A DNA stretch of 45,188 nt from a virus, in the IMG/VR virus record IMGVR_UViG_3300036772_000209, positions 1 through 45,188 of that record; one strand, given 5' to 3'. Under the pieces are notes generated by a model, which was not told the DNA's origin, searched no databases, and saw nothing but the letters and a program-made list of their open reading frames with translations. A program made the translations under genes and the position numbers. This document shows, piece by piece, positions 140 through 24,709 of the stretch; within the stretch, counting starts at the first letter, position 1; each line of letters opens with the position of its first letter.

Positions 140-173
140 GGCTGATAATAGCCTTAAATGGCTAACTCCGCAA
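140..173 (-). promoter_or_regulatory. Minus-strand promoter with phased GGCT/AGCC operator array (site A)
   Basis: On the minus strand a -35 TTGCGG (168-173) is followed after 17 nt by -10 TATTAT (145-150). The predicted transcript starts about 25 nt before the ATG at 113. On the plus strand GGCT at 140, AGCC at 150 and GGCT at 160 are exactly 10 bp apart. The core GGCTATTATCAGCC (minus strand) contains the -10 box, so a protein bound here should block the promoter. The same arrangement recurs at 18449-18492 and 22407-22450. Confidence 0.7.
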
Positions 174-179
174 TGACGA

Positions 180-1715
180 TCAAGCGCCCGCAAATTCCTC
201 ATCTGCCTGCGCACGCGCCGTCTTGACGAGTTCGTCCGCCGAGTACTGACCCGATGAGTCATCGGTGATGTAGTGAGCATCTTCGAGAAAGGCCATACAG
301 ATCGTGTCCCATAAGTCAGGGGAGGAGATACCCTCCTTCTTCATATCGACCTTGCTCATGATCTGCCAGCGCCCCTTGTCGTCGAAGAAGAAGGGGATGC
401 GCGAGCCCTGATCGAGCAGTTCCTTTTTGTACTTGTCGGTGAAGGTGACGCGACCATCCTTCACGGCGTCGGCACAGTTCACGCTGCACTGCGCGCGCTG
501 ATTGACGAAGCGCTTCTTCAGGCGGTCGAGGAAGTTCACGACACCCCAGTTCACGCGGATGATGTTCGGCGTATTGAGGTTTTCGAGCATCTTCGCGAAC
601 TGCACGCCCTGACCGCCGACGTCGACCAGCACGGTGCAATTCGAAAGACCCGCAGCGATGTCGTGCGCGCGGCCAGCGACTTCCTGCCAGTCAAGCGAGC
701 TCGAAAAGATCGGTATGTCCATCACGTCGATGCGCCGCGGAGTAGGGTCGAGGCGGTCGCCGTAGCCGGTCACGCGCATGTGCGTGCCAACGGTCTTGTC
801 GCGGAACACGCCGGCAGCCACGTCGATGATAAGGAAATTGCCGTAGGGCTCGTCGTCCGCGATCGCGCGGACTTTGGGGTTTATCAGGCGCTCGATGGCA
901 CCGCGGCTGAGCAGGTATTTGTCGCTGAATTCCGGGAACTCGCCCCGCACCTTGATTGAATATTCAGGGGAGTCGGCGCCACCGTACTCGAGCAGTTTGT
1001 CCAGAATGAACTGGTCCGACACCAGCGGGGAGTCTTCGCTGTTGAAAACCAGCGCATCCCATGGGCCGCCGTTCTTTTTCGATAGCGAATGGTGTGTCTC
1101 GCGGAAGAAGCCGCTTGCGCGCGTCGGCTGCGAAGCGAGGAGCATCCGGTTGTTCGCATCCGTCAGCGCGCCCCCAAGCACACCGAAATTGGCGTCAGGG
1201 ATACCACTGCTTTCGTCGCAAAGGACGCTCAGCCACGCGGAATGCGAGCCCGCCAAATTTTCCGGCTTTCCGACCGGTGCCGTCTTCGCGATGACCCACC
1301 AGTTGAACTTGTGGCCGGCGATGTAGACCTTCTCGCTCTCGACCTTGATGTATTGAGCGATCCACGCCTGAGCGTTGTTCTGGATGGCCTGATGGTGGCC
1401 GGCGAACTCTTTCCACACGCCGTCGTGCACGGTCGCAAGGCGAGCTGCGGTGATGATCGTGTTCGAGAACGCAAAGACGCTCAGATGCCAGAGCGCGATG
1501 ATCGAGAAGCCTGAGGTCTTGCCCGTCCCGTGGCCGCTCGATACCGACGTGCGCGCACCCGGCACAACAAAGCTATCGAACATCTCGATTTGCTGATGCG
1601 TCGGCGTGATGCCAATGACCTCGATCGCGAACCGCACGATGTCGTCGCAATAGCGCTCGACAAAGGCCTTGTAGCGCGGGTCATTGATGAGACTGCCTTT
1701 TACGGTGCCGGCCAC
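180..1715 (-). CDS. terL: Terminase large subunit (packaging ATPase/nuclease)
   Basis: The motor that pumps phage DNA into the prohead and cuts it. The 511-residue length is normal for the family. The N-terminal ATPase has Walker A GHGTGKTS near residue 62 and Walker B LCDESS near residue 165. The C-terminal RNase H-like nuclease has acidic residues in LIIDVA (about 294), TVLVDVGGQG (about 360) and SPDLWD near the end. The start is GTG, one base after the terS stop, with no clear Shine-Dalgarno site, so translation is probably coupled to terS. The assignment is secure; the packaging mode (headful or cos) cannot be read from this protein by eye. Confidence 0.95.
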   Translation of the reverse strand: MAGTVKGSLINDPRYKAFVERYCDDIVRFAIEVIGITPTHQQIEMFDSFVVPGARTSVSSGHGTGKTSGFSIIALWHLSVFAFSNTIITAARLATVHDGVWKEFAGHHQAIQNNAQAWIAQYIKVESEKVYIAGHKFNWWVIAKTAPVGKPENLAGSHSAWLSVLCDESSGIPDANFGVLGGALTDANNRMLLASQPTRASGFFRETHHSLSKKNGGPWDALVFNSEDSPLVSDQFILDKLLEYGGADSPEYSIKVRGEFPEFSDKYLLSRGAIERLINPKVRAIADDEPYGNFLIIDVAAGVFRDKTVGTHMRVTGYGDRLDPTPRRIDVMDIPIFSSSLDWQEVAGRAHDIAAGLSNCTVLVDVGGQGVQFAKMLENLNTPNIIRVNWGVVNFLDRLKKRFVNQRAQCSVNCADAVKDGRVTFTDKYKKELLDQGSRIPFFFDDKGRWQIMSKVDMKKEGISSPDLWDTICMAFLEDAHYITDDSSGQYSADELVKTARAQADEEFAGA

Positions 1716-1716
1716 G

Positions 1717-2835
1717 CTATACGTCGCTCACGTCGTCGCTGGCTACTTTCAGCGGGTCGATGCCGAGCCGGCGCAGACGATCGCCGCGGCCAATGAACTG
1801 CTTCGCGCGCTCGCGCACGTCGGCCATTCTCGTTGCATAGATGTCGTCCAGATCCTTCGTGGACGTCACGGTCAGATCGATTTCGACTCGCTCCTTAAAC
1901 ATGCCCATGAACTTGGCGATGTTGTCCCAAGCCTTCTCTTGGCTGTGCATCTTCGCTTCGATGCCTTCCTTTCCCTCTTTCATACCAGCGTACAGGCGCC
2001 GGGCCGCAACGGAGAGCCGGCGTGTGTCGTGTATATGGACATACCCGATCCCGTCGCCATCGCATTGCGGGCACGATGGGTTCGGTTCGCGGCTCTTCAC
2101 GAAACCAAACCCGCCGGCGCCGTCTGGCGGTTCGCGGTTGAATCGCTTCCCGGCTGCAGTTGCTTTGTCTTCGTCGCGCTGGTGACGGACCATCGCCTGA
2201 TTGAATTCTTCCTCGTCCGCCCACTGATGGCCGTGTGCGGTTCCCCAGCAATGCCGACAGTTGTCGCGCCGGTACTCGACGATTTCATTCGGGTCCGCTG
2301 TGGCGATATCCCACCAGTACTTCAGAACCATGTCCTGCGAAATGTGCAGGCGTTCCATCATGGCTTTCTCGGATAGCTGAATAGCCTTGCGGACATCGGG
2401 TCGATTGAGGAGCTTGTGCGATTCCTTCGATGCGGTGGAATCCGCGTAGCCAGCGCGCCGAGCCGAACCGGTTGCATTCCGGTCGATGACGTACTCCTCG
2501 ACGAACCGCGCCTCCATCGGGTTGAGAGTGTCAACCTCCCATGCAGGCTCTATTTTCGGAAGACGCTTGCCGCTGTTATCGCGTGGTGCGATCGGCTTCG
2601 CCTGAACAGGTGCATAGCCACGCTGCCATTCCTTGCGCTTGGCGTACGTAGCGACGGCTCCCTTTGACGGAAGAGGGGCGTTCGTCGTGGCCGCTACCAT
2701 CTCCAAAGCTTTCGCATAAGAGATGCCCCCGGCGGACGCCCAAGCGATGCGGATCAGCTCCCATATTTCATCGGGATACCGCTTTCCTTTTCCTTCGCTG
2801 GGTTCGTTGCTTTCTGGCGTGTCCATGTTGGACAT
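1717..2835 (-). CDS. terS: Terminase small subunit, enlarged, with zinc-ribbon-like insert
   Basis: DNA-recognition subunit of the packaging terminase. Residues about 105-155 match the Terminase_2 pattern (NPMEARFVEEYVIDRNATGS, then RRAGY and an SHKLLNRPDV segment), the helix-turn-helix region of TerS. At 372 residues it is about twice the usual length. The extra middle part has two cysteine pairs, CRHC and CPQCDGDG, about 65 residues apart, which could bind zinc. The gene directly precedes terL. Its promoter region holds four GAACATGTTC-like palindromes, one overlapping the start codon. A downstream in-frame ATG (M4) is an alternative start. Confidence 0.88.
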   Translation of the reverse strand: MSNMDTPESNEPSEGKGKRYPDEIWELIRIAWASAGGISYAKALEMVAATTNAPLPSKGAVATYAKRKEWQRGYAPVQAKPIAPRDNSGKRLPKIEPAWEVDTLNPMEARFVEEYVIDRNATGSARRAGYADSTASKESHKLLNRPDVRKAIQLSEKAMMERLHISQDMVLKYWWDIATADPNEIVEYRRDNCRHCWGTAHGHQWADEEEFNQAMVRHQRDEDKATAAGKRFNREPPDGAGGFGFVKSREPNPSCPQCDGDGIGYVHIHDTRRLSVAARRLYAGMKEGKEGIEAKMHSQEKAWDNIAKFMGMFKERVEIDLTVTSTKDLDDIYATRMADVRERAKQFIGRGDRLRRLGIDPLKVASDDVSDV

Positions 2836-2956
2836 GTTCGCCGCACTTGAACATGTTCACACCTTGCTTTTTCCGTGTGTGAACATGTACGACTATGATG
2901 CGCGCCTTATCTGGCAATGGTTTCGGTCGGTTTCCGAATTCAGGTGAACATGTTCA
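2830..2956 (-). promoter_or_regulatory. Cluster of GAACATGTTC palindromes upstream of terS
   Basis: Two perfect 12-bp palindromes TGAACATGTTCA lie at 2848-2859 and 2945-2956. An imperfect copy (TGAACATGTAC) is at 2880-2890, and a copy with one changed base (GGACATGTTC) at 2830-2839 overlaps the terS start. The 164-bp gap contains nothing else obvious. No clean sigma70 pair is visible; weak candidates lie between the copies. The palindromes are unlike the GGCT/AGCC sites elsewhere, so they probably bind a different dimeric protein (a phage late regulator or a host factor), or serve as a terminase recognition region. I noticed no other copies in the window. Confidence 0.6.
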
Positions 2957-2999
2957 GCCAATCGACTACCGCCCCTCGCCGTCGAGTAATAAGTCGTTT

Positions 3000-4457
3000 T
3001 TAGGGTGTTGGCTCAGCGATCACGAGTTGTGCCGCCGGTACAGCGGCCGAAGAAAATGGCACTGGTGTCGGCGCTGGAGTTAGCGCGCCCGTGTTTGCGT
3101 TGATGGTAAATGCGGAAATCGTTCCATCGGTGCTCGGCGCGTACAGCCATCTTCCAGTGGGATCGATAGTGACTTCGGCCGGAACAGACGTGCCCGTGGT
3201 CGAGCCTGCTGCGGAAGGAATATCGGTCGCCGAACTAATGCCAAATGTCGATATCTGATTTCCCGCTATCACGTAGGCGAATTTGCCAGACGGCACGAAC
3301 ACGAACGGACCTGTAAAAGGACCGGGAACCAACCCGCTGTTCCGGATCCCCCCAGTCGACGAATCCGTTCCCTGGATTAAGAGATCGTTAGTGGCGCTCA
3401 CCCCGTAAAGTAAATGATCCGATGGATCTATCGAGAGACTGGTTTGGGTACGTCCCAGTACCGACGGGAACGGACTACCTGGGATGGCAGTCGGCAGGCC
3501 CGTCACGGAGTCGAGCGAGAAAGCGTCGGTTTCGCCGGTTGAATCTCCCACGTACAGGAATTTCCCAGAAGGAGCGATGACGAAGTTCGTAGATGCTGGC
3601 GCCTGCAGCGGAATGAACTCTGTATTCTGCGTGACAACGTTGAAGAAGACCACCTCATTGAGCGTCGGACTCAGCATGTACACGGCCGGTACGGCCGGGT
3701 TCGCTACGGCTGACTGCAGGAGGATGCCAAGACCGGTGAGGTTGTCCGCGGGGACCGGGGCGAGCGCGCCGCTCGACGGGTCGATGCTGAACGTAAGCTC
3801 TTCATTCAGGGACCCTTGCGTGATCGCGACAAGATTTCCCGATGGGATCACTGCGATGGAACTGGGTTGGCCACCTGTCGGGAACGGACTCCCCGGCACC
3901 TGGTTGAGTGCACCGGTCGTGGGGTCGACGCGGTAAACGGCGGTTACCCCAGCGTTCGGGTTCGGAACGAGCGCGAATTCAGCCTGCTCGCAGCTGATCG
4001 CAATCGTGGTGACATTGGATTCAGCGACCGTGCCCGCACCGTTGGTGACGACGCATGTTTCGCCAGCGGGTTGCGAGGCGATCGTTACCGAATACCCGGC
4101 TCCGCTTCCCAGGGGCGTCGGAAATGCGAATGACCCATTGGCGGAAATCGTTACGGCGTCGGTGCCGTTATTGCTCAGTTGAAGTGATACGCCTCCGGGC
4201 ATACCAGCAACGGTGCCTCCGAGCGCGAAGGTCGACGCTGACGGTGTCGACGGTGTCGACGGAGTTGTCGGTGTTGTCGGTGCGATGGTGGACGGCCCTG
4301 CGCTGCTCGGCTGATTACCGGGAGTAGTATCTCCGCCGCAGGCGCCCAGCGTAAGCAGCAACGTTGCGGCCAAGACGCAGGCGCCATGCCTCGTTACAGA
4401 TGCACGTGAAAATCTCCGCAATTTCGCATTGGCGTTGCGGCGTAATAAATCCGTCAT
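3000..4457 (-). CDS. Surface lipoprotein with beta-propeller (lactonase-like) repeats
   Basis: Predicted exported lipoprotein of 485 residues. A basic N-terminus and hydrophobic stretch end in the lipobox LGAC (Cys40). A Thr/Pro/Ser-rich linker (about 55-75) follows, then a beta-rich domain ending in a paired cysteine (about 75-155), then repeated blades such as VYRVDPTTGALNQVPGSPFP, FSIDPSSGALAPV, FVFVPSGKFAYV and VTIDPTGRWLYA. These repeats are typical of the 7-bladed lactonase family, but many such proteins have no proven enzyme activity. It sits between terS and a small gene, outside any recognisable phage module. It is most likely a moron changing the surface of the lysogen; surface exclusion is possible. 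The start has AGGGA 11 nt upstream. Confidence 0.75.
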   Translation of the reverse strand: MTDLLRRNANAKLRRFSRASVTRHGACVLAATLLLTLGACGGDTTPGNQPSSAGPSTIAPTTPTTPSTPSTPSASTFALGGTVAGMPGGVSLQLSNNGTDAVTISANGSFAFPTPLGSGAGYSVTIASQPAGETCVVTNGAGTVAESNVTTIAISCEQAEFALVPNPNAGVTAVYRVDPTTGALNQVPGSPFPTGGQPSSIAVIPSGNLVAITQGSLNEELTFSIDPSSGALAPVPADNLTGLGILLQSAVANPAVPAVYMLSPTLNEVVFFNVVTQNTEFIPLQAPASTNFVIAPSGKFLYVGDSTGETDAFSLDSVTGLPTAIPGSPFPSVLGRTQTSLSIDPSDHLLYGVSATNDLLIQGTDSSTGGIRNSGLVPGPFTGPFVFVPSGKFAYVIAGNQISTFGISSATDIPSAAGSTTGTSVPAEVTIDPTGRWLYAPSTDGTISAFTINANTGALTPAPTPVPFSSAAVPAAQLVIAEPTP

Positions 4458-4600
4458 TATCGTGGTGGTCCCTGCGTTGAATTTCTGTTTATGGGGAGAG
4501 CCGCCGCGATTATGTCAGAACCGGCTTGCGTCCATATTAGTGAACCCCGTAGGCGCGGCGACAGAAGAGCCCGCCCTCGTGGCGACGCATAATGGTCGCG

Positions 4601-4837: not shown

Positions 4838-4879
4838 ACGAAGCTCCATTTCGTTGTGGATGCTTCAATGAGTATATTC

Positions 4880-4952: not shown

Positions 4953-5018
4953 CTCTATGTGACCTGCAAGACGCAAGGCTGGACTAGAATCTCAATCTCA
5001 ATACCAACAGGGGGACCA

Positions 5019-7522: not shown

Positions 7523-7526
7523 GGCC

Positions 7527-7778: not shown

Positions 7779-7793
7779 GGGATATCTCCGTTT

Positions 7794-8450
7794 TCAGTCT
7801 TTGTGATCATCGAAAAGCGGCATCGTTGTCGCCGGCTTGCGCTCTTCGGATAGGTTCGCGCGACGCGACAGGAACCGGTCGACTTCGACCATTGCCTCAA
7901 CCAGGTCATCGATGTCATGCTGCAATGTCGCACCGCCGCGGATATCGTCGTTGAACGTCGAATTCAGGCGGCAGACTTTCTCGAAGGATTGGGTGGTGCG
8001 CCGCGCGGAATCGAGGATGGTTCGTAGATGCGATTCGAGCGGCAGTTGATCGCTTGCGAGGCGCAGCATCACGGCAGCGGCGTATTGCGTGGTGTCGAGC
8101 ACCGAGGCGTGGACCGCGCGCATCACCGCCATCTGGCCGGCAAGTTGAGGTTCGCGCTCAGGCTCGTTCGATAGGCCCAACAGCCAGTCCGCTGAAACGC
8201 CGTACGCCAGTGAGGCTTTGCGGAGGAGCGATTTCGGGAGAGGTGCGTCGCCGCTCTCGACCTTGGATAGCTGGCTTGAGTTCTTGTAGCCGAGCTTCGC
8301 CGCAGCTTCTTTCTGGTCAAGCGAATTGAGATTGCGCGCGACTATCAGGCGCTCTCGCATCAGCTTTTCGGTTTCGGCATCGTCGGCAAGGCGCCGGCGC
8401 GGCCGGGTCGGGGATCGGGAGAAAAGCGTTATCGCTTCAAGCGTTGTCAT
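7794..8450 (-). CDS. XRE-type helix-turn-helix regulator
   Basis: A protein of 218 residues. Residues about 30-85 form a lambda-repressor-type HTH (RERLIVARNLNSLDQKEAAA, KLGYKNSSQLSKVESG, then YGVSADWLLGLS). The remainder (QLAGQMAVMRAVHASVLDTT and on) is helical and may dimerise. The ATG at 8450 lies inside the end of the upstream Ref gene and follows GAGG. It is probably a regulator of this operon or of host genes; it is distant from the immunity switch at 21.7 kb. Confidence 0.75.
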   Translation of the reverse strand: MTTLEAITLFSRSPTRPRRRLADDAETEKLMRERLIVARNLNSLDQKEAAAKLGYKNSSQLSKVESGDAPLPKSLLRKASLAYGVSADWLLGLSNEPEREPQLAGQMAVMRAVHASVLDTTQYAAAVMLRLASDQLPLESHLRTILDSARRTTQSFEKVCRLNSTFNDDIRGGATLQHDIDDLVEAMVEVDRFLSRRANLSEERKPATTMPLFDDHKD

Positions 8451-8802
8451 GTTGATCCTCGCCGATCCAGTCCGGTAACTCGATCTGACCGCGCTCGGGC
8501 GCCGGCAGCAGATGAGCAAATTCGCGGCGCGTCAGGTTGATGAGCCCAACCTCGGAAATACCGTAGAGGGCGGCGAACTGAGGTCGGCCCATGTTGTGTA
8601 CCCCGGAACCCGATTGATCGTGATGAGACAAGCACAACGCGCATCCGTGAGTGTGCTTCGCACGCATCTTTCCTTGCCCGGTGCGCTGGTGATGCCAAAG
8701 CGCGCTGGTCTCGCCGAGCCGCAAGTATCTGCACAGAGCGCAGCCCGCGCGAACGCATGCATCTACGTAGCGCTTCTCCACTGCGGTCATGGGCTTCGAC
8801 AT
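8437..8802 (-). CDS. ref: Ref-family recombination-enhancing nuclease
   Basis: A protein of 121 residues. It matches the HNH-type Ref fold known from phage P1: CALCRYLR near residue 21, then HHQRTGQGKMRAKHTHGCAL, CLSHHDQSGSGVHNMG and FAALYG. P1 Ref is a RecA-dependent DNA nuclease that boosts recombination. The cysteine pairs and clustered histidines suggest zinc and metal binding. It starts a transcription unit: the ATG at 8802 has GGAG upstream and an operator array 18-64 nt before it. The P1 ref gene is also under phage repressor control. Confidence 0.8.
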   Translation of the reverse strand: MSKPMTAVEKRYVDACVRAGCALCRYLRLGETSALWHHQRTGQGKMRAKHTHGCALCLSHHDQSGSGVHNMGRPQFAALYGISEVGLINLTRREFAHLLPAPERGQIELPDWIGEDQHDNA

Positions 8803-8819: not shown

Positions 8820-8866
8820 AATAGCCACACTATACTAAAAATAGGCGTAACAGGCTATTAAAAGTC
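8820..8866 (-). promoter_or_regulatory. Five-fold phased half-site array upstream of ref (site C)
   Basis: On the plus strand, 4-bp elements recur every 10 bp: AGCC 8823, TACT 8833, AGGC 8843, GGCT 8853 and AGTC 8863, with AT-rich spacers. AATAGCC (8820-8826) and GGCTATT (8853-8859) are perfect inverted copies. The minus strand has possible -10 boxes TATTTT or TATAGT inside the array, but no good -35 in register. It occupies the only substantial gap in the middle of the leftward operon, so it probably controls the ref-to-5444 part. Confidence 0.6.
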
Positions 8867-16300: not shown

Positions 16301-17152
16301 TCAATCTCCGCACATGCAGTCAACCAATGCGTCATCCGGCTCGGCATCGGGGAAGTCGAGCGGGATTTGCTTGGCGTAGAAAAGAGCTTCGCGATGAAGG
16401 TTTTCGTAGTTCGGTCGATCATTGCGGAAGGTCGCACCAGCTGGACGCGACTCTTCGTTAATCCACCAGGCAGCACGCTGGGGTTGATCGACAAGCGCCC
16501 TTACGATCTTGTGGCGGGCTTTGAGGAAGCAGCAATCGCAATTACCGAAATCACCCTCCGGGTCGAGCGCAAGATCAAAGGACTGCGCGCGCCAGAACGC
16601 GAGCACATCGGCCTTTCTCACCTTAGCGCGAGCGAGCGGCAGATTCGGAACGCCGGCGCTGTTGTCGCGACCCGGATTGCCGAGTCTCGCCACGCGCAGG
16701 GGCTCGTCGGCGCGAATTCCCATCACGTTGTCCCATTCCTCGTAACCGAGCGAGCGCATAAAGGCTTTGCCGGTTTTGACTTTGAGGTTTGCGGTGCACG
16801 TCCGCGCCACAGGGTTGGGCAAAATTCCCAGTGCGTCGATCATTCGGGAGAAGGGTTCGCCACTGCGGCTGGCTGTCTCGAAACTGACTCCCCGCACGAT
16901 GCACTTTGAGCGGCTACCGTTCTCGAATCCATCCCATTCGATCCATGCGATCGGCACAGCCCAGCGGACGGCGCATTCGTTGATGAACTCCAGTGTTTCC
17001 TCTCGCTCTTTCCCGGTGTTTTGGAACGAGACGATGCAGTCGGACGGGAGTCCGCCGTTTGCCTCCAGAATCCGATGAAGCATGTAGCCACTGGTGCGGC
17101 CACCGCTGAAGCAAATTTGCGCGGGCCCTTCTATGATGTACGGGCTTTTCAT
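16301..17152 (-). CDS. PAPS-reductase-like PP-loop protein
   Basis: A protein of 283 residues of the adenosine-nucleotide alpha-hydrolase fold. The PP-loop is SGGRTSG (16-22), followed by VSFQNTGKEREETLEF, as in phage PAPS reductase-family proteins. Cysteines near the C-terminus (GNCDCCFLKARHK and DCMCG) could hold an Fe-S cluster or zinc. True PAPS reductases reduce sulfate; phage members often have unproven roles, and DndC-like relatives act in DNA sulfur modification. Clustering with two methyltransferases makes nucleic-acid chemistry a reasonable guess. The ATG overlaps the upstream stop. Confidence 0.8.
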   Translation of the reverse strand: MKSPYIIEGPAQICFSGGRTSGYMLHRILEANGGLPSDCIVSFQNTGKEREETLEFINECAVRWAVPIAWIEWDGFENGSRSKCIVRGVSFETASRSGEPFSRMIDALGILPNPVARTCTANLKVKTGKAFMRSLGYEEWDNVMGIRADEPLRVARLGNPGRDNSAGVPNLPLARAKVRKADVLAFWRAQSFDLALDPEGDFGNCDCCFLKARHKIVRALVDQPQRAAWWINEESRPAGATFRNDRPNYENLHREALFYAKQIPLDFPDAEPDDALVDCMCGD

Positions 17153-17604
17153 CGACCAACCCGCTCCATGTCCCAGCCGCCGTCATCGCGCTCGTACACA
17201 AAGAAGAATGGCCATGGGCTCATTTCCGCGGCGATCTTCGTCTTCGCTAGCGCGTCATCAGTCACGGCTTTGCGATGCGCCTTCGTGTCGCGTGCCTGCA
17301 ATTCATCGAGGTCCGTCATCACGAAAAAGTCGATCGTGAGATGGGTGTTTTTCGCGAGCTTCAACTTGACGAACTCATAGCGCCACCACTTGATCGCGCC
17401 AGCCAATTTCTGTTGATCGAGGTAGGTCATGTAACGCAGCTCAAGCTTGGTGGGCTCGCCATCCTTCATGCGCCCCTTTGCTTGATGCGTCTCATCAACC
17501 GTCGACGCCGCTTTGACAGCAGGGACCTTAGCGACAGGAATGCCGCGCTTCGCTTGAAGCGCCGCAAGCTCTTCCTCTGTCATCCGCAGACGGTTCTTTG
17601 ACAT
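17149..17604 (-). CDS. DUF1064-like phage endonuclease
   Basis: A protein of 151 residues. The C-terminal ~90 follow the DUF1064 pattern: TKLELRYMTYLDQQ, then WWRYEFVKLKLAKNTHLTID, then FFVMTDLDELQARDTKA and FFFVYE. In this family Glu, Asp and E-x-K-like positions make a restriction-endonuclease-type centre; members are thought to act on branched DNA. The ATG at 17604 is chosen because upstream in-frame ATGs overlap the previous gene. No Shine-Dalgarno is present and an operator/promoter-like element abuts the start, so a leaderless transcript is possible. Confidence 0.75.
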   Translation of the reverse strand: MSKNRLRMTEEELAALQAKRGIPVAKVPAVKAASTVDETHQAKGRMKDGEPTKLELRYMTYLDQQKLAGAIKWWRYEFVKLKLAKNTHLTIDFFVMTDLDELQARDTKAHRKAVTDDALAKTKIAAEMSPWPFFFVYERDDGGWDMERVGR

Positions 17605-17614
17605 GAATATTAAT

Positions 17615-17628
17615 AGCCTATGAAGACT
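17615..17628 (-). promoter_or_regulatory. Half-site pair upstream of the DUF1064 gene (site D)
   Basis: AGCC at 17615 and GACT at 17625 (one change from GGCT) are 10 bp apart with an AT-rich spacer, overlapping the stop of the antirepressor gene. On the minus strand TATTAA just after GGC could be a -10 box placing the transcript start almost at the ATG (17604). No clear -35 is visible. Confidence 0.4.
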
Positions 17629-18430
17629 AATGATGCGCGTGCGAAATCGCAGCGACGGAGCGCTGCTGCACACCACGTTGATTCAGGTTAACCAAATGCT
17701 TGCCCCATTCGCCCGCTATCCACGTCACGCCCTTGGGTGTGAAGGTCATGTGGTTGTACGCATGGTCGCTGTGATTCGAGACCCCAGCCTTCACGCTGAA
17801 GCGGCCGGTGTCGAGATGGCCCGATCGCGGCGTCATTTCACCATTGAGGTAATAGACGACGTCGCGATCGATCAGGAATTCTTTAAACCGCTTCTCGTTG
17901 GCGCCAAGCAACTTGCACACCTGACGGAAGGTCTTGTTGCCAGTCGGGGCTTCGACGTACCTCTCGACGAACTCGACCATCGGCTTCTGCTCGACCAGTC
18001 GCGCTTCCGCGGCGACAGCACGCCTTTCGGACTCCAAAGCCATGGTAAGAATTTCCATCCGGCTAAGGGCAACGGGTGTCGGCGCTTCGTTTTTTCGAAC
18101 AGCAGGAAGCACCACAGAAGTGACAAACTTTCGGAAGCGGTGCGGTACGCTGCCAGGAGTCATCGCATCCCGGCAACGAAGAACAAGTGCATAAAGACCT
18201 GATTCGTTGATGACGGTGACTTTTTGCTCTCCACCAAGGGTCTGCACTGAATGCAGACCCCTTTCATCGTCGTCAAGCTTACGAACCGACGTCGAATCGA
18301 CGTTCAGGATGCTGCACACATCCGATGCAATGAACCATGGATCGCCGTCGATCAACACGGTACGAACCTTCGAACTCGTCTCGCAGTTAGAGAAGACGTG
18401 CGTGAAGCTGAATATCATCGGCATGGTCAT
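17627..18430 (-). CDS. ant: Phage antirepressor with BRO-N and KilAC domains
   Basis: A protein of 267 residues. The N-terminal BRO-N domain (about 8-115) has VRTVLIDGDPWFIASDVCSI, then VINESGLYALVLRC and FRKFVTSVVLPAVRK. The C-terminal KilAC/ANT domain (about 130-245) has FVERYVEAPTGNKTFRQVCK and DRDVVYYLNGEMTPRSGHLD. Such proteins counter the prophage repressor; P1 Ant carries the same C-terminal domain. I start at ATG 18430 because GGAG lies 8 nt upstream; a GTG at 18442 lies upstream of that site. It has its own promoter overlapped by an operator core. It lies downstream of the C4-like leader, as ant does in P1. Confidence 0.87.
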   Translation of the reverse strand: MTMPMIFSFTHVFSNCETSSKVRTVLIDGDPWFIASDVCSILNVDSTSVRKLDDDERGLHSVQTLGGEQKVTVINESGLYALVLRCRDAMTPGSVPHRFRKFVTSVVLPAVRKNEAPTPVALSRMEILTMALESERRAVAAEARLVEQKPMVEFVERYVEAPTGNKTFRQVCKLLGANEKRFKEFLIDRDVVYYLNGEMTPRSGHLDTGRFSVKAGVSNHSDHAYNHMTFTPKGVTWIAGEWGKHLVNLNQRGVQQRSVAAISHAHH

Positions 18431-18448
18431 CGTTTGCTCCACGGGGTT

Positions 18449-18492
18449 GGCGTATTATGGCTAATAATAGCCGTATAAGACTATTTGAGCAA
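18449..18492 (-). promoter_or_regulatory. Antirepressor promoter with operator core (site E)
   Basis: On the minus strand -35 TTGCTC (18487-18492), 17 nt, then -10 TATTAT (18464-18469). The -10 sits inside GGCTATTATTAGCC (18459-18472). Half-sites on the plus strand: GGCG 18449, GGCT 18459, AGCC 18469, GACT 18479, all 10 bp apart. The transcript would start near 18457, about 27 nt before the antirepressor ATG. The -35 lies inside the end of the upstream gene. Confidence 0.75.
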
Positions 18493-18927: not shown

Positions 18928-18954
18928 GGGTATTCCCGTTCTTGCGCATGACCT

Positions 18955-20340
18955 TCATTGCGTAGAACCCTCGCTCCTGCCGAACTTCAGACCCGGCGTG
19001 ACGGCGAGTAGGGCTGCGCGGCGCTCGGCGATCTGCTCTGGCGTCAGTTCGACCTTCGGCGGCTGAAGTTCGGCTGGTATCGGCGCGGGTGTAGTGACCG
19101 GTACGGGCAGCTTGCCGCCGCTCTCAATCGCGGCGCGTATTCGCGCATGCCACGCATCTTGCGAATCGGACGGCAGCGGTCCTCCCACACCGACGAGCGC
19201 ACCTTGCTGCTTCGCAAGGTCAATGTCTTTCCACCACCCCGGAATTTGCCCTGACGCGCGCTTGTCGGGCGCGACAGGAGGGGCCTTGCTGTTCGCCATG
19301 AAGCGGTCGATCTGCTCCTCGCTGCCGATGCACACATGCAGGCCGAGGTACTTCTGCCCGCGATCGTTGACGCCCTGGTTGTGCGGCGTCAGCGTGCAAC
19401 CCTGAATCGCGCGGCAGAGGTCGCGCGGCGTGTAGCCCCAGCGGAGTGCGGCCCGGATGGTTTTGATGCGCTTTTCGCCGAGACGCGCTCTTGTCGCGCC
19501 GGTAACGCGCTGCCAGTAGGCGAAAATGCCCGCGATCTTTTCGGTCTCTGTCAAATGCCCGTCACCGGCACCCCCCCCGTCGAGCGCAAGCTCGACAGAG
19601 GTTTGGGTGTTAACTGTAGGTGAAGAGGAAGATGAAGACGTAGAGCCGTCACTTCGACCTTCACCATGCCGTCGGGTTGGTGAAGACTTAAGTGCTTCCC
19701 AATCGTCCGGTAGGGTGTCAGATTTATCCTGGTTGCATGGCACGCAGGACGGCACCATGTTGTCGAATGTGTGACGGCCGCCTTTACTTCTCGGCATCAA
19801 ATGATCGATCTCCCAGACGTCACCAAGCGGGTCACTGCAGTGATGACAATGCCCGTTATTCTTTGCGAGAACGCGTAGACGCAACTTTGCCCGCTCTGAA
19901 TCCTGGTCCGCGCCGCGGCCCTTCGCGTCGTCCGGCTGTTCTGCGCCGAACCGGGTTGCTGTGCCCGCGTTGCGGCGCACATAATCGTCGCGGACGAAGC
20001 GAGACGAATACCAGATTGGGCCCGCCTGCGCGGGTATGAGTTCGACCGGTGCGCCATCCCGTCGTCCAGATCGCGGCGTGTAAATGTAGGGCGTGCATAT
20101 TTGCCCTTTGTCAGCACCTTTCAGGACGCCTTTTGCTTGCAACGCTTTAAGCTCTGCCACCTTGCAGTGAGCGGCCTCGGCGATCTCTTTCAGAGTCCAG
20201 CGCAACACGCCGTACTCCTCCTGGTCATGCATGAGACAAAGCACGTCGAGCCACACGCTCTTTTCGGCGCGCGTGCAGCGGCGCAGGTTGCTGTTGGACT
20301 GCCAGTCACCCGGATAGAACTGAAACGAAGGGCGTTTCAC
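18955..20340 (-). CDS. Replication-initiator-like protein with inserted HNH nuclease domain
   Basis: A protein of 461 residues. The N-terminal ~110 (KRPSFQFYPGDWQSNSNLRR and KSVWLDVLCLMHDQEEYG) resemble the winged-helix start of phage replication proteins (DUF1376/gpO type). Residues about 160-215 are a complete HNH nuclease: CHHC, WEIDHLMPRSKGGRHTFDNM, CVPCNQDKSD. A Ser-rich linker and a helical C-terminal replication-like part (FAYWQRVTGATRARLGEKRI, LRWGYTPRDLCRAIQGC) follow. I chose GTG at 20340 because it follows a GGGGTG stretch, overlaps the stop of a tiny ORF (TAGTG) and matches the family N-terminus; a longer ATG form would reach 20490. Confidence 0.75.
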   Translation of the reverse strand: MKRPSFQFYPGDWQSNSNLRRCTRAEKSVWLDVLCLMHDQEEYGVLRWTLKEIAEAAHCKVAELKALQAKGVLKGADKGQICTPYIYTPRSGRRDGAPVELIPAQAGPIWYSSRFVRDDYVRRNAGTATRFGAEQPDDAKGRGADQDSERAKLRLRVLAKNNGHCHHCSDPLGDVWEIDHLMPRSKGGRHTFDNMVPSCVPCNQDKSDTLPDDWEALKSSPTRRHGEGRSDGSTSSSSSSPTVNTQTSVELALDGGGAGDGHLTETEKIAGIFAYWQRVTGATRARLGEKRIKTIRAALRWGYTPRDLCRAIQGCTLTPHNQGVNDRGQKYLGLHVCIGSEEQIDRFMANSKAPPVAPDKRASGQIPGWWKDIDLAKQQGALVGVGGPLPSDSQDAWHARIRAAIESGGKLPVPVTTPAPIPAELQPPKVELTPEQIAERRAALLAVTPGLKFGRSEGSTQ

Positions 20341-20411
20341 TAGCGCACCCCGGTGCGGTTCCCGGGGTTGCCGCGGAAGAATGGTGGTATCGGCGATTGA
20401 GTTGTTGCCAT
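20340..20411 (-). CDS. Tiny ORF, possible Ash/Icd-type leader remnant
   Basis: An open frame of 23 codons from ATG 20411, MATTQSPIPPFFRGNPGNRT and three more residues, ends in TAG overlapping the GTG start of the next gene (TAGTG). The frame stays open upstream through LVEFVRPFETH. The text before and around MATT resembles, from memory, the start of Phage_ASH/Icd-like proteins, which follow C4/CI RNAs in P1- and P4-type immunity regions. The body of such a protein is missing. It may serve only for translational coupling. Confidence 0.4.
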   Translation of the reverse strand: MATTQSPIPPFFRGNPGNRTGVR

Positions 20412-20431
20412 ATGTGTCTCGAACGGGCGAA

Positions 20432-20444
20432 CGAATTCCACCAG
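20432..20444. repeat. 13-nt direct repeat, copy 1 of 2 (copy 2 at 20831-20843)
   Basis: CGAATTCCACCAG occurs here and again at 20831-20843 in the same orientation, 399 bp apart, bracketing the inverted repeats and the hairpin region. On the minus strand both copies encode LVEF in the same relative frame, so they may be remnants of a duplicated leader ORF. Confidence 0.7.
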
Positions 20445-20500
20445 TCGACAGGTGTCGATCTGACAGGGCAAACATCAGGGGTTCCCGCAACCGGGTAGTG

Positions 20501-20673
20501 GTTCAGTTTGCAGCCTCGGGCGAGTGATGCAGTGGCCGACCGGATCACTACAGAGAGCTTTGCGACGTTGCTGACCGCCAACCGGCCAGGCGTATCTCTC
20601 ACCATTTCGCTGCGAGCCGAAGGCGTTGGTCTGGGCGTTTCTACCTGCCAGTTGCCGAGGCTGCGAACTGAAC
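20501..20673. repeat. 18-bp inverted repeat in the leader (arms 20501-20518 and 20656-20673)
   Basis: GTTCAGTTTGCAGCCTCG at 20501-20518 is the reverse complement of 20656-20673 apart from one base (a G-T wobble in RNA). Weaker similarity continues for several bases outwards. With 137 bp between the arms they could pair in the leader RNA or, if the upstream part is processed, act in trans as antisense and target. That is how C4 and CI RNAs of P1 and P4 act. Confidence 0.7.
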
Positions 20674-20730
20674 TACCACGCGGAACCGGGCGGTAACTAC
20701 GAAGGCGGGCAGTGAGCCATATGCAATGGT

Positions 20731-20823
20731 CCTGCGCAGGAGGAAGAAGAGGGGCTCGCCCGCCGACTCAGAAACGGCGTGGTGCCCTTACGGGGAGACC
20801 ACCCCCCTTCCTCTTGCGCTCTG
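20731..20823 (-). ncRNA. C4/CI-like antisense immunity RNA (structured core)
   Basis: On the minus strand the core folds as an outer stem (20807-20819 with 20734-20746, 13 bp with one wobble pair), a GGGG/CCCC inner helix and two side hairpins: GTGGT/ACCAC (20779-20783 with 20798-20802, a CCC/GGG stem inside) and CGCCG/CGGCG (20761-20765 with 20775-20779). Fold and text (CTCCCCGTAAGGGCACCAC) resemble, from memory, the C4 antisense RNA family. Context fits: it lies downstream of an operator-bearing promoter (20895-20918) and upstream of complementary sequence (20501-20518), a tiny Ash/Icd-like ORF and an antirepressor. Ends are approximate. The whole 612-bp gap 20341-20952 holds only this, the repeats and the promoter. 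Confidence 0.62.
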
Positions 20824-20894
20824 AAGTGAGCGAATTCCACCAGCCGGCGAAAGCGTGTGGGGCGTCAGAACGACAACGGTCGCCGATATATTGC

Positions 20895-20918
20895 GACTCT
20901 TAATAGCCATAATAAGCT
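20895..20918 (-). promoter_or_regulatory. Leader promoter/operator (site F)
   Basis: Half-sites GACT 20895, AGCC 20905 and AGCT 20915 are spaced by 10 bp. The minus strand carries TATTAT (20909-20914) as a -10 between AGCT and GGCT half-sites, but no good -35 (TCGAAA at 17 nt). The transcript would start near 20900 and run through the structured leader. Confidence 0.5.
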
Positions 20919-20952
20919 ATTAAAGATCGAATTTCGACCTCTGCGGGAAAAT

Positions 20953-21288
20953 TTAAAGGGAACCTGCGCGAGTCACGCGATCCGAGCCGCTGTCGCCGCT
21001 GCGCGCCCGAATGTCGCTCGCGATGAACCGGACCTTCGCCTGGTCCTTTCCATGCGATTCCACGACAGCAATGCATGCCTCGCGCTCATCCGCGACCGCC
21101 TGCTCGACGGCCGGTGCGACGTGATGGTCGAACAACTGCCCCATCTCTCGACGCAGGAATTCGCGCTCACCTTCCGACATGCCAAGGCCGATCGTAGGCT
21201 CGCTGTTGATCCTGTCCACGCCGAAATCATGGCGCCACGTGAGACACATAGCCTCGATCACCTCGGCGCGATCTAGTGTCTGAGGCAT
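20953..21288 (-). CDS. Hypothetical protein downstream of the small repressor
   Basis: A protein of 111 residues (MPQTLDRAEVIEAMCLTWRH, then an acidic helical part FDHHVAPAVEQAVADERE and a basic end), not recognised. ATG at 21288 has AGGA 8 nt upstream; an in-frame ATG at 21336 would add 16 residues but has only a poorly spaced AAGG. It lies between the HTH gene at 21422 and the C4-like leader. The 133 bp upstream up to 21421 show nothing I can name. Confidence 0.6.
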   Translation of the reverse strand: MPQTLDRAEVIEAMCLTWRHDFGVDRINSEPTIGLGMSEGEREFLRREMGQLFDHHVAPAVEQAVADEREACIAVVESHGKDQAKVRFIASDIRARSGDSGSDRVTRAGSL

Positions 21289-21421
21289 ACTTCGCTTCCT
21301 GGCTTGAGCTGCCCAGCAGAACGACAGCAACGACATGCCTTGTAGTATTTTGACAGCAGGCTGTACGAGACCATTCGGTTCGTCGTGTCGCGAAATTTCC
21401 GCGTAGATGCCGGGTCGCCGT

Positions 21422-21682
21422 TCATATAAGAACAGGCCCCAATGTGACCGACGTCGAGATATCGACCGTCCGCTTGCCTTGTTGCTCAAGCTCGAACAGA
21501 ACGTCGTATATCTTCTGGACCGTCTTCGCTTTCGGGTTCTTCGTTTGTTGCTGGAATATCTTGTTGAGCGTATCCAGGGATACACCCGAAAGCTTCGCCA
21601 GATCCTTTCGGCGACGCCCGAAGTGGACGCTATGGGTCCGCATGACGAATTCGTATTGGCTTTCGTTGGGCAATTTGTCCAT
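21422..21682 (-). CDS. Small helix-turn-helix repressor, leftward arm of the switch
   Basis: A protein of 86 residues with an XRE HTH: FVMRTHSVHFGRRRKDLAKL, SGVSLDTLNKIFQQQT, then KAKTVQKIYDVLFELEQQG. The size and single domain suit a Cro-like or compact repressor. It is transcribed from 21748-21725 on the minus strand, divergent from the HTH gene at 21862. Operators cover both promoters, the classic layout of a lysis-lysogeny switch. It is one of two candidates for binding the GGCT/AGCC sites. Confidence 0.8.
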   Translation of the reverse strand: MDKLPNESQYEFVMRTHSVHFGRRRKDLAKLSGVSLDTLNKIFQQQTKNPKAKTVQKIYDVLFELEQQGKRTVDISTSVTLGPVLI

Positions 21683-21719
21683 TCCCGATCGAGATTGATG
21701 GCTTCTTCGACGTCAGAAT

Positions 21720-21753
21720 AGCCTATTATGGCTATAGAGACAACGTTAAACAA
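21720..21753 (-). promoter_or_regulatory. Leftward switch promoter with operator (site G)
   Basis: Minus strand: -35 TTGTTT (21748-21753), 17 nt, -10 CATAAT (21725-21730). The -10 lies inside AGCCTATTATGGCT (21720-21733), half-sites exactly 10 bp apart in the inverted (AGCC then GGCT) order. An alternative pair, TTGTCT and TATTCT, overlaps it. It would drive the HTH gene at 21682. Confidence 0.7.
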
Positions 21754-21785
21754 TGGGCTGGCACTCAGAAGCGGGGCAAGTGGCG

Positions 21786-21839
21786 TTGCGCGGCTAAAAA
21801 AAGTCGCTTATAGTTCGCCGTATATGGCTATTTTTAGCC
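21786..21839 (+). promoter_or_regulatory. Rightward switch promoter with operators (site H)
   Basis: Plus strand: -35 TTGCGC (21786-21791), 17 nt, -10 TATAGT (21809-21814), start near 21821. GGCT 21792 and AGTC 21802 lie in the spacer. A second array, CGCC 21816, GGCT 21826 and AGCC 21836, lies over and after the start site, with GGCTATTTTTAGCC as its core. A protein bound to either array should block transcription of the HTH gene at 21862. Confidence 0.7.
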
Positions 21840-21861
21840 ACCACCACGGTTATCCATTACT

Positions 21862-22338
21862 ATGCCAACGCATAAAACACACAGGGTTGTGCCTGCCCAT
21901 GCGGTCGCCGCGAAAGCGGAAGCCGAAGCAAAAGACGCGATCAAGCGCAGAAACAGGGGACCTAAACCGCCGCCGGCGATCTCCCGTGAGGCCAAGGCGA
22001 TTCGAAAGCTGCTGGCTCAGAATCTCGAAGCATGGATGCGGGAAGTGCCTCATCTGGACACCCAGGTGAAGTTATCCGATGAGTCGGGCGTGTCCCAAAC
22101 GGCTATTGGTCGAATTCTCAGAGGCGAAGTCTCAGTGGCGGTGGATGCCTTGCAGCAGATCGCAAAGGCATTCGGGAGGGACGCGTCAGAATTGCTAGCG
22201 AGTCCAGACCTTTCCCGCGTGAAGTACGACGCCGCGCGCTACGACCGCCTCCCATCCTATGAGCGCGTACGCATTGATGCGTTCATTGCGGAGGTCATCA
22301 AGGAACATAGTAATAAAGGCCCCGCGGGAAAAAAGTGA
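21862..22338 (+). CDS. HTH regulator, rightward arm of the switch
   Basis: A protein of 158 residues. A basic, Ala/Lys-rich N-terminus (about 1-45) precedes an XRE HTH (about 75-115): VKLSDESGVSQTAIGRILRG, VSVAVDALQQIAKAFGRDAS. A helical tail follows. The HTH resembles those of small phage repressors, but there is no LexA/CI-type protease domain. No Shine-Dalgarno precedes the ATG. With the divergent HTH gene it makes up the presumed immunity switch; which one maintains repression cannot be told from sequence. Confidence 0.78.
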   Translation: MPTHKTHRVVPAHAVAAKAEAEAKDAIKRRNRGPKPPPAISREAKAIRKLLAQNLEAWMREVPHLDTQVKLSDESGVSQTAIGRILRGEVSVAVDALQQIAKAFGRDASELLASPDLSRVKYDAARYDRLPSYERVRIDAFIAEVIKEHSNKGPAGKK

Positions 22339-22406
22339 TGGGCGCCGGAGACGTCGAGACGCAGCAGAAATATCCGGCCTGCGGGCCTATATCGCATCAA
22401 AGTTCC

Positions 22407-22450
22407 TTGCATTAATAGTCGTTAATGGCTATTATTAGCCTTGATAGGCG
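22407..22450 (+). promoter_or_regulatory. Early rightward promoter with four-fold phased array (site I)
   Basis: -35 TTGCAT (22407-22412), 17 nt, -10 TATTAT (22430-22435). Half-sites AGTC 22417, GGCT 22427, AGCC 22437 and GGCG 22447 are spaced exactly 10 bp. The core GGCTATTATTAGCC (22427-22440) equals that of site E on the other strand. It drives the recombination operon starting at 22481. The rest of the gap 22339-22480 holds only a weak GGCC hairpin near 22376-22393. Confidence 0.78.
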
Positions 22451-22480
22451 CACTGGGCGCCGTCCTTCAAGGCTATTCCT

Positions 22481-23389
22481 GTGTCAGATTCCAGCTCCAC
22501 AAGGGCGGTTTCCTCCAACATTTTGGGTGTCGTCCGCGCATCGTCGTGGAAGACCCTGTTCTCCTGCGGTCTGAGTTGGTACTACGCCAACATCGAGAAA
22601 ATCCGCAAGCCATCTGCCGGTATCGCGCAGATCGGTACCGCGATACACGCCGGCACCGCGCTGTTCGACGGCCCGCGCCTGCGTGGCGATGAAATCAGCA
22701 TCGAAGAAGCCGTCGAGGGCGCAATCGCGATCCTTTACAACGACGATGACGAGGTGAACTGGGACTCCAGCGCGCAATTCAAAGCCGCGGAAAGCATTGT
22801 CGCGCGCTCGGTGAATCGGTACTGCCACGAAATCGCGCCGAACGTCACCTACACCGCGGTCGAAGTCCGCTGCGAAGACCTCCATATCAACACGAAGCAC
22901 GGAACGATCGTCACTACCGGAACGATCGACCGGGTGCGTCAACGCGCATACGCCGTCCAGAACGACGGCGCCCTCCAAGAGGTTTCGCGCCCGGACGAGT
23001 ATCAGACCATCGTCTTTCACGAAAACGTCCGCGATATCAAAACTGGCCTGCAGGCTGTCGGCTATGGCGATGACGGAGAGCGCGTTGCCGCAATCGGTGC
23101 GCACCATCTGCAGGTTGGTATCTACACGATCATGACTGAAGTCGAGTTGCAGCGCGCAATGGAGGCGCCGGCCGAAATCTGCGGCATCTCCACTGGCAAG
23201 TCAGGCGACATTGCGGTGAGCGATATCCGCGATGTGCGCACGGCACTACTCGGCACTGAAGAGCGCCCCGGCATGATCGAAATGGCCGCAAAGATGCTGA
23301 AAGAAGGCGATTTCCGGCCCGCGCCGGGAACTGTGATGTGCTCTCCCGTTTATTGCGCCGGGTGGGATCGCTGCCCGTATCACGCTTGA
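22481..23389 (+). CDS. Cas4/RecB-like PD-(D/E)XK exonuclease with Fe-S cysteines
   Basis: A protein of 302 residues. The nuclease core includes GTAIHAGTALFDG, VEVRCEDLHI, TGTIDRV, a RDIKTG motif (Asp and Lys of the active site) and the QVGIYTIM helix typical of RecB-family nucleases. One cysteine near residue 29 (LFSCGLSWYY) and three at the end (MCSPVYCAGWDRCPYH) match the split Fe-S cluster of Cas4 and AddB. The start is GTG with AAGG about 9 nt upstream. With the RecT-like gene it forms an exonuclease/annealing pair for phage recombination. Confidence 0.85.
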   Translation: MSDSSSTRAVSSNILGVVRASSWKTLFSCGLSWYYANIEKIRKPSAGIAQIGTAIHAGTALFDGPRLRGDEISIEEAVEGAIAILYNDDDEVNWDSSAQFKAAESIVARSVNRYCHEIAPNVTYTAVEVRCEDLHINTKHGTIVTTGTIDRVRQRAYAVQNDGALQEVSRPDEYQTIVFHENVRDIKTGLQAVGYGDDGERVAAIGAHHLQVGIYTIMTEVELQRAMEAPAEICGISTGKSGDIAVSDIRDVRTALLGTEERPGMIEMAAKMLKEGDFRPAPGTVMCSPVYCAGWDRCPYHA

Positions 23390-23416
23390 AACCCATAAAT
23401 CACAAAGGAATCCACG

Positions 23417-24667
23417 ATGACCGCAGCAACCCTCGAACAGATACGCCGGCCTGCCGCGGCGCCGTTGGCACCCGTTATACCAGGCTTTGGTACGTCGGAA
23501 TCGTTTGAACTGATGCAGCGTGGCGCGCGCCTGCTCGCATCCGGGACGCTTGTTCCGTCCGCATATCGCCTCATCATCGAGAAGTACGACCGGTTCGGCA
23601 ACGTGACCGAGTCCCGCGACAACCCGGCCGCGCTGTCGAACTGCGTCGTCGCGCTGAATATGGCGATACGGATGAATGCCGATCCGGTGATGGTGATGCA
23701 GAACCTGCATATCATCGAAGGGCGGCCATCGTGGTCGTCGCCGTGGATCATCGCGCAGATCAACAACTGCGGCCAGTTCTCCAAGCTTCGGTTCGAAGTC
23801 AAGCAACTCGGCAAGCGGACGATTGAACATGTCGGCTTCGAGTGGAGCAAGAACGATCAGGGCAAGAACACTCGGCGGGAAGTCAAGACGCCGGTCGAGA
23901 TTGAGGATGCACAGTGCATCGCATGGTGCATTGAAAAGGCGACCGGCGAGCGGCTTGAGTCGACCCCCGTATCGATCGGCATGGCGGTTATGGAGGGTTG
24001 GTTCACGAAGAACGGCTCCAAGTGGAAGACGATGCCCGACCAGATGCTCCGCTACCGGACTGCCGCGTTCTTCGGCCGCGTCTACGCGCCGGAATTGCTG
24101 ATGGGCCTTCCGACGACGGACGAGCTCGAAGATACGGTTATCGACGTCAAAGAGCAGCCTGACGGCAAGTACGCCGCCGACGTGGATGCGTTGCGCGAGG
24201 GCGCCGCGAATCGTGCGGCCGCAGCAGAGCCGGCGCGCGCGCGGAAAGACACGCAGGACGCGGCAACGGTAGAGGCGACTGACGTCAAGTCGAACGCGCC
24301 CGCTGCGTCGCAAGCTGCCGCCGCGGAATCGACTGGCGCAACGGCGACTGCAGCGACTGCGGCGAGCGCGCCAGCATCCGCCGCCGCACAGACGACGCCA
24401 GCGGAGCAGGTAGGCATGGAATTCGATCAGCCGGCGCAGTCAACGGGCCAGTCGTACACCCACGACGAGACGCTCGAGATGGCGATCGAATTCGCCGGCA
24501 AGGGCGATTACGACTCAGCGCTCGGCCTCAAGGCGCAGGTGCCCGCCGAGATGAAGAAGCGGATCGATGCAGCGATTCAGGGCCACCAGGACGACGTTGC
24601 GGAACTTGCGCGGCAAGCGCAGCAGCAACCCCAATCCCGGCGGCCGAGCCGTTCGTACAACGTCTGA
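23417..24667 (+). CDS. recT: RecT-like single-strand annealing protein
   Basis: A protein of 416 residues. The core (about 25-245) follows the RecT pattern: NCVVALNMAIRMNADPVMVM, QNLHIIEGRPSWSSPWIIAQ, INNCGQFS and, at the end, TMPDQMLRYRTAAFFGRVYA. It anneals ssDNA left by the neighbouring exonuclease. A long Ala/Thr-rich linker (about 260-340) joins a short helical C-terminal domain (about 350-400) that could contact SSB or another partner. The start follows AAAGGA. Confidence 0.85.
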   Translation: MTAATLEQIRRPAAAPLAPVIPGFGTSESFELMQRGARLLASGTLVPSAYRLIIEKYDRFGNVTESRDNPAALSNCVVALNMAIRMNADPVMVMQNLHIIEGRPSWSSPWIIAQINNCGQFSKLRFEVKQLGKRTIEHVGFEWSKNDQGKNTRREVKTPVEIEDAQCIAWCIEKATGERLESTPVSIGMAVMEGWFTKNGSKWKTMPDQMLRYRTAAFFGRVYAPELLMGLPTTDELEDTVIDVKEQPDGKYAADVDALREGAANRAAAAEPARARKDTQDAATVEATDVKSNAPAASQAAAAESTGATATAATAASAPASAAAQTTPAEQVGMEFDQPAQSTGQSYTHDETLEMAIEFAGKGDYDSALGLKAQVPAEMKKRIDAAIQGHQDDVAELARQAQQQPQSRRPSRSYNV

Positions 24668-24675
24668 ATTTTTTC

Positions 24676-24709
24676 GTCTACGGATAGCCGTAACAGGCTA
24701 TAAATAGGC
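24676..24709 (+). promoter_or_regulatory. Phased array upstream of the SbcC-like gene (site J)
   Basis: GTCT 24676, AGCC 24686, GGCT 24696 and AGGC 24706 are spaced by exactly 10 bp, again alternating in orientation. TATAAA (24699-24704) can be a -10 box, but no good -35 is in register. It divides the rightward operon before the gene at 24727. Confidence 0.55.

Follow-up and report, generated by a model that had tools for sequence, protein, structure and literature searches.

Stacked half-sites at dispersed promoters of a P1-like viral contig: probable operators of a prophage-repression regulon

The operator of phage 434 is a 14-bp palindrome of 4-N6-4 form, read by dimers of helix-turn-helix (HTH) proteins of the HTH_3 type. 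This paper concerns regularly phased GGCT and AGCC elements in the IMG/VR virus record IMGVR_UViG_3300036772_000209; the window analyzed here is the entire record (45,188 bp, classed as linear). The elements form arrays that are probably the stacked operators of a dispersed prophage-repression regulon, with a 158-residue protein as the most likely repressor and an anti-repressor as the likely inducer.

Several described systems invite comparison. SPC32H Rep has an N-terminal DNA-binding domain, a middle domain for dimerization, and a C-terminal domain that both forms tetramers and binds the anti-repressor (PMC9986798). On DNA, Rep is a tetramer, which Ant breaks (PMC9638917). In phage ZX5, over-expression of the homologous repressor reduced phage by 99.99%, and over-expression of the Bro-N anti-repressor favored lysis (PMC9782041). 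The C1 repressor of P1 has 22 dispersed, asymmetric operators (PMC8546580). In CP-933P, PaaR2 and YdaS bind one common operator region, in which four contiguous 18-bp palindromes extend over two divergent promoters and give a continuous footprint of about 78 bp (PMC8630535). Stoperators of the mycobacteriophage L5 type are asymmetric sites for a monomer; distributed genome-wide, they block elongation (PMC9283540).

A first-pass annotation of the window had listed nine places at which GGCT and AGCC elements recur at 10-bp steps in alternating orientation. Half-sites of this kind, or close variants, are present at all nine, and the 10-bp step is exact at every one. The entry at 21792-21836 must, however, be divided into two arrays, because half-sites 21802 and 21816 are separated by 14 bp and are out of phase, and the array at 17615 is weak. 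The revised inventory comprises 32 half-sites in ten arrays of two to five half-sites each:

140-163, minus strand: three half-sites, GGCT GATAAT AGCC TTAAAT GGCT.
8823-8866, minus strand: five half-sites, upstream of a Ref-like gene and an HTH gene ahead of the terminase genes.
17615-17628, minus strand: weak array of two half-sites, AGCC TATGAA GACT, just upstream of the gene at 17149-17604.
18449-18482, minus strand: four half-sites, on the predicted promoter of the anti-repressor gene.
20895-20918, minus strand: three half-sites, on a promoter-like sequence reading left.
21720-21733, minus strand: two half-sites, AGCC TATTAT GGCT, on the predicted promoter of the Cro-like gene.
21792-21805, plus strand: pair of half-sites, GGCT AAAAAA AGTC, inside a 17-bp promoter spacer upstream of the repressor gene.
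21816-21839, plus strand: three half-sites, out of phase with the pair at 21792, just upstream of the repressor gene.
22417-22450, plus strand: four half-sites, ahead of the exonuclease-recT operon.
24676-24709, plus strand: four half-sites, upstream of an SbcC/AAA-like gene (24727).

The consensus of the half-sites is AATAGCC/GGCTATT, and two of them form the palindrome AATAGCC-N6-GGCTATT. The G of the AGCC core is kept in 32 of 32. The 6-bp spacers are as AT-rich as first reported, with 85% A+T in AGCC-N6-GGCT and 92% in GGCT-N6-AGCC, against a contig that is 60% GC. Most simply, the alternating pattern represents 4-N6-4 palindromes of the 434 type stacked at a 20-bp pitch, and no new half-site grammar is needed.

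The bare 4-mers discriminate poorly. A scan that allowed one mismatch, as initially proposed, gave 57 alternating pairs at step 10 against roughly 45 at other steps; it shows almost no excess because the flanking AT bases belong to the motif. The outcome is very different when chains of three alternating half-sites are scored against GGCTAT/ATAGCC with a threshold of at least 14 of 18. Fifteen chains are found at step 10 and only 0-3 at steps 6-9 and 11-15, and 200 local dinucleotide shuffles contain a mean of 0.13 (maximum 2). All 15 are intergenic, in keeping with the placement originally described, and intergenic DNA amounts to 3,456 of the 45,188 bases (7.6%) in the gene map used here. The palindrome GGCTATTATTAGCC, with at most three mismatches, has 19 matches in the window against 1.16 in shuffles. 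In a ranking of 7-mers made independently of the array claim, the top two by over-representation in the window are ATAGCCA (14 against 2.5 expected) and AATAGCC (13 against 2.2 expected). No strong array was found by the chain scan of the window to the right of 24,709, which agrees with the reported absence of comparable arrays from the virion half.

Promoters were scored at 90,314 positions with a position-weighted sigma-70 matrix, since a consensus scan is too strict to judge these sites; the matrix is approximate and its results are indicative only. By this score, arrays overlap each of the four top promoter-like sites in the window (at 22417, 20895, 21720, and 18449), seven of the best 10, and 10 of the best 20, compared with a chance expectation of about 1.2%. 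At six arrays (140, 18449, 20895, 21720, 22417, and 24676) a GGCT, or AGCT at 20895, leads straight into the -10 box, which is TATTAT, TATTCT, or TATAAA; array 24676 reads GGC-TATAAA. The individual predictions are as follows:

Array 140: promoter-like TTGCGG-17-TATTAT, leftward into a gene that leaves the contig.
18464-18492: TTGCTC-17-TATTAT, at array 18449, aimed at the anti-repressor gene.
20909-20937: promoter-like TCGAAA-17-TATTAT, at array 20895, leftward.
21715-21743: TTGTCT-17-TATTCT, at array 21720, aimed at the Cro-like gene.
21786-21814: TTGCGC-17-TATAGT, with the pair at 21792 in its spacer, aimed at the repressor gene.
22407-22435: TTGCAT-17-TATTAT, the best-scoring site of the window, with GGC preceding the -10 box, aimed at exonuclease-recT.

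The earlier description of the arrays as lying at early promoters holds only in part: array 140 is in the packaging region, just past the terminase genes and outside the early region, and the predicted -10 box at 17615 is too near a start codon for an ordinary promoter.

Two putative regulatory proteins are encoded between arrays:

21862-22338, plus strand: repressor candidate of 158 residues, with a basic N-terminal tail, an HTH_3 domain at residues 66-111, and a C-terminal association domain like that of SPC32H Rep.
21422-21682, minus strand: Cro-like HTH protein of 86 residues, assigned to phrog_9425, the family of PAJU2 gp60 (Cro).

Judged from its sequence, the 158-residue protein is an HTH joined to an association domain and is most likely the protein that binds the arrays. 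The HTH scores above the Pfam gathering cut-off and shares 48% identity with the one at the N-terminus of PAJU2 CI, an S24-type repressor whose C-terminal half matches UmuD/CI-like families. Residues 46-151 align with residues 92-198 of SPC32H Rep (E 6e-13), for which solved structures exist (5D4Z and 5D50); Foldseek relates the protein to 5D4Z at 2e-5. Over 103 residues (47-149) it is 45% identical to the phiV10 repressor. Such a combination of a PAJU2-CI-like HTH with the association domain of SPC32H Rep is unusual. A Pfam search detected no S24 peptidase domain in the 158-residue protein, which distinguishes it from RecA-cleavable CI repressors with their C-terminal S24 peptidase. RacR of Rac, also 158 residues long, was considered as a homologue and ruled out, the two proteins not being homologous. 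The N-terminal tail of the candidate (21862-22000) contains an AT-hook-like KRRNRGPKPPP; that it might contact the AT-rich spacers is pure speculation.

The layout around the repressor gene closely resembles that of Salmonella phage SPC32H and the epsilon15/phiV10 group (Uetakevirus). The order Cro-like gene, operators, repressor, operators, exonuclease, RecT is common to the window, phiV10, BUCT554, Tyrion, SPC32H, and a Klebsiella prophage. Exact TTACC-N5-GGTAA dyads are dispersed genome-wide in phiV10 (8) and SPC32H (10), and neither genome has TTACC/GGTAA dyads at other spacings from N2 upward. Fourteen recognition-helix groups were drawn from 57 further Rep-homologue loci, with one locus scanned per group, and the dyads flank rep on both sides in 14 of 14. 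Dispersed operators are a trait of the Rep repressor family. The relatives also have a dyad beside the anti-repressor (ant/Bro-N) gene, at 20497 in phiV10 and at 20013, upstream of ant, in SPC32H, just as array 18449 lies on the predicted Bro-N/KilAC promoter of the window.

The resemblance does not extend to the operators themselves. The window uses AATAGCC-N6-GGCTATT and not the TTACC-N5-GGTAA type, and since the relatives' dyads stand apart, 17 bp from one another where paired, the continuous stacking at 20 bp is a peculiarity of the window. The repressor and the virion differ as well. SPC32H Rep is longer by an extra N-terminal DNA-binding domain, and its antagonist is the small Ant, whereas the window combines a shorter repressor with a Bro-N/KilAC protein and a P1-like virion.

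From the arrays, their statistics, the promoter overlap, the gene order, and the homologies, we infer how binding, oligomerization on DNA, repression, and induction might proceed. A repressor dimer would be the binding unit, seated on a palindrome whose two AATAGCC half-sites are spaced by one helical turn, and palindromes placed head to tail at a 20-bp pitch would generate the alternating 10-bp pattern. The HTH of the 158-residue protein would read the half-sites and its C-terminal domain would join neighboring dimers. Cooperative binding to one face of the DNA, already suggested in the first-pass annotation, is a fair reading of the 10-bp step together with the C-terminal homology to the tetramerizing domain of SPC32H Rep. 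When occupied, the arrays would mask the -10 box and spacer of the sigma-70 promoters that serve cro, exonuclease-recT, the ref/late-regulator operon, the SbcC-like gene, the gene past the terminase genes, the Bro-N/KilAC anti-repressor gene, and, by autoregulation, the repressor gene. Because no RecA-cleavable peptidase domain was detected, induction would run through the anti-repressor: once its operator-covered promoter fired, the repressor would be inactivated and every site freed at the same time. Competition from the Cro-like protein for these sites is probable. It is conceivable, though on balance doubtful, that the chimeric repressor polymerizes along gap-free rows in which each half-site can pair with either neighbor, with array length (2-5) setting the strength of silencing and the anti-repressor depolymerizing the whole network at once.

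A dispersed repressor regulon, the multi-site immunity system first suspected, is well supported by arrays that flank the repressor gene and overlie the best predicted promoters, in a layout that matches SPC32H and phiV10. Several observations nevertheless weigh against it. The N-terminal DNA-binding domain of SPC32H Rep has no counterpart in the 158-residue protein, which has a 45-residue basic tail in its place, and the HTH that remains aligns with a region that is a dimerization domain in SPC32H Rep (PMC9986798). Because the SPC32H-type domain is absent, the case for DNA reading by this protein depends on the likeness to PAJU2. Its AlphaFold model is of moderate quality (predicted local distance difference test score, pLDDT, 70; predicted template modeling score, pTM, 0.47). 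The promoter weight matrix is approximate, a stricter consensus scan recovers only one of the promoters (20895), and the -10-like sequence of 17615 all but adjoins the start codon. Finally, no close relative of the early region was found in the collections searched.

The doubts about the DNA-binding domain raise the question of whether the arrays are read mainly by the 86-residue Cro-like protein, with the 158-residue protein acting through protein contacts. The latter aligns with only the middle and C-terminal domains of SPC32H Rep, the former belongs to the PAJU2 Cro family and has an array on its own promoter, and PaaR2 and YdaS offer a precedent for two proteins on a common operator region (PMC8630535). 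The Cro-like protein gave a poor model when folded alone (pLDDT 51). This division of labor seems unlikely in view of the HTH of the 158-residue protein, which exceeds the Pfam cut-off and is like that at the N-terminus of an S24-type repressor, and of the dispersed dyads that flank the repressor gene in homologous phages.

We regard it as considerably less probable that the arrays, like the -22 repeats of P1 Lpa, serve an activator of a promoter class present throughout the phage, with the GGC-TATTAT register marking activator-dependent promoters. This would account for the constant register that the half-site keeps with the -10 box at six arrays; P1 late promoters do have a -22 repeat, and a third HTH gene occupies the P1 lpa position. 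The sites have -35-like boxes at 17 bp, however, and cover the -10 box and beyond rather than lying upstream; moreover, they flank cro and rep, and the virion half, in which late promoters would be expected, has almost none. A role in DNA maintenance instead of transcription, as replication iterons or partition or recombination sites, is brought to mind by the plasmid-borne P1-like elements among the capsid relatives and by the phased repeats of iterons and parS sites. It is more improbable still, given that the arrays lie at gene starts across 24 kb and overlap predicted promoters, and that no iteron-like cluster was seen beside a replication or partition gene. That the pattern arose by chance in a GC-rich genome and was merely picked by eye finds some encouragement in the bare 4-mer pairs, but it is refuted by the intergenic chains and the palindromes, both far in excess of shuffled sequence. 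A dispersed repressor regulon remains the preferred explanation.

PHROGs and a capsid comparison reveal P1-type major capsid, sheath, and terminase genes. The capsid (37912-39588) gives a 24% match to P1 gp23 and matches of 37-50% to relatives carried by plasmids or phages (Xanthomonas phage Rb1, Burkholderia pBVIE05, an Ideonella plasmid, and Pseudomonas plasmids), and the PHROGs matches of the tail sheath and terminase agree with this assignment. The contig belongs to a P1-like myophage, probably a temperate one, whose immunity region is of different origin from its virion genes. The record is probably a fragment of a larger genome, part of which is absent, so further arrays may exist.

By analogy, the C1 network of P1 can be viewed as a functional parallel. 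Both have P1-like virion genes, operators at many promoters including the lpa-pacAB region, and anti-repressor control. In P1, one C1 operator (Olpa) is located at lpa, just ahead of pacAB, and array 8823, ahead of ref, the HTH gene, and the terminase genes, is its positional counterpart. The C1 site is an asymmetric 17-bp sequence (ATTGCTCTAATAAATTT), whereas the sites of the window are palindromic and the repressor candidate is of the HTH_3 type. CP-933P has evenly spaced contiguous palindromes and a repressor and Cro-like protein on common sites, but its consensus (GTTTAGTAA) and repressor are both unlike those of the window. The L5 stoperators share the principle of many genome-wide sites for one immunity repressor; the sites of the window differ in being palindromic and promoter-linked, with all strong chains intergenic. 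The operators of 434 and lambda, in contrast, are confined to the immunity region, whereas the window has gap-free half-sites at ten dispersed places.

No GGCT arrays comparable to those of the window occur in the Ideonella element, Rb1, or L021, and searches of viral and genome contigs for close relatives of Rep, RecT, terminase, and the Cro-like protein turned up none with these arrays. A search of IMG/VR for TAGCC-N6-GGCTA-N3-TAGCC returned 13 contigs with a single match each, which is under a rough chance estimate. Other dyads were seen in P1-like elements. In pBVIE05, ATAGA-N4-TCTAT occurs six times (1789, 25134, 25409, 31060, 31108, and 39731), mostly in intergenic DNA and once upstream of repB; these dyads are probably the repressor operators of that plasmid. 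The Ideonella element has three TAGGC-N3-GCCTA dyads in all (5855, 8398, and 8423), including TTAGGCGTCGCCTAA, which agrees in every letter with the dyad found between racR and ydaS in the Rac prophage of E. coli (4322). Three GTATA-N6-TATAC dyads of Rb1 (171, 1213, and 2570) lie downstream of TTGAC sequences and are possibly another operator or promoter family.

The remaining genes at the arrays are:

7794-8444, minus strand: third HTH gene, with ref on one side and the terminase genes on the other; a counterpart of P1 lpa by position only.
8437-8802: Ref-like gene, behind array 8823.
17149-17604: Holliday-junction-resolvase-like gene, behind weak array 17615.
17627-18442, minus strand: anti-repressor candidate with Bro-N and KilAC/ANT domains.
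22481-23389, plus strand: PD-(D/E)XK exonuclease, in the operon (22481-24667) behind array 22417.
23417-24667, plus strand: RecT-like annealing protein, in the same operon.

Its P1 lpa-like position makes the gene at 7794-8444 a possible late-gene regulator; an HTH gene in a similar position is also present in Rb1 and the Ideonella element. From array 20895 to the following leftward gene (18955-20490) stretch about 400 bp (20490-20895) without a convincing open reading frame. That gene encodes a Pfam HNH domain beside a replication-initiation-like stretch; its Cas9d/IscB-like HNH matches are weak and below cut-offs. In the packaging region, 3000-4457 encodes a 485-residue protein whose C-terminus matches Pfam Lactonase (7-bladed beta-propeller). 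No Rfam families or tRNAs were found in the window.

The principle of dispersed repressor operators is known; what is unusual here is the pairing of a P1-like virion with an SPC32H/PAJU2-type switch, and the gap-free stacking of half-sites. Graded arrays on similar promoters offer a ready series for relating half-site number to repression. The window would represent a P1-like phage with dispersed-operator immunity in the style of P1 but with an unrelated repressor module of the epsilon15/SPC32H type, while the P1-like pBVIE05, and possibly Rb1 and the Ideonella plasmid, carry still other dyads. This suggests that the multi-promoter layout persists while the repressor-operator pair is exchanged.

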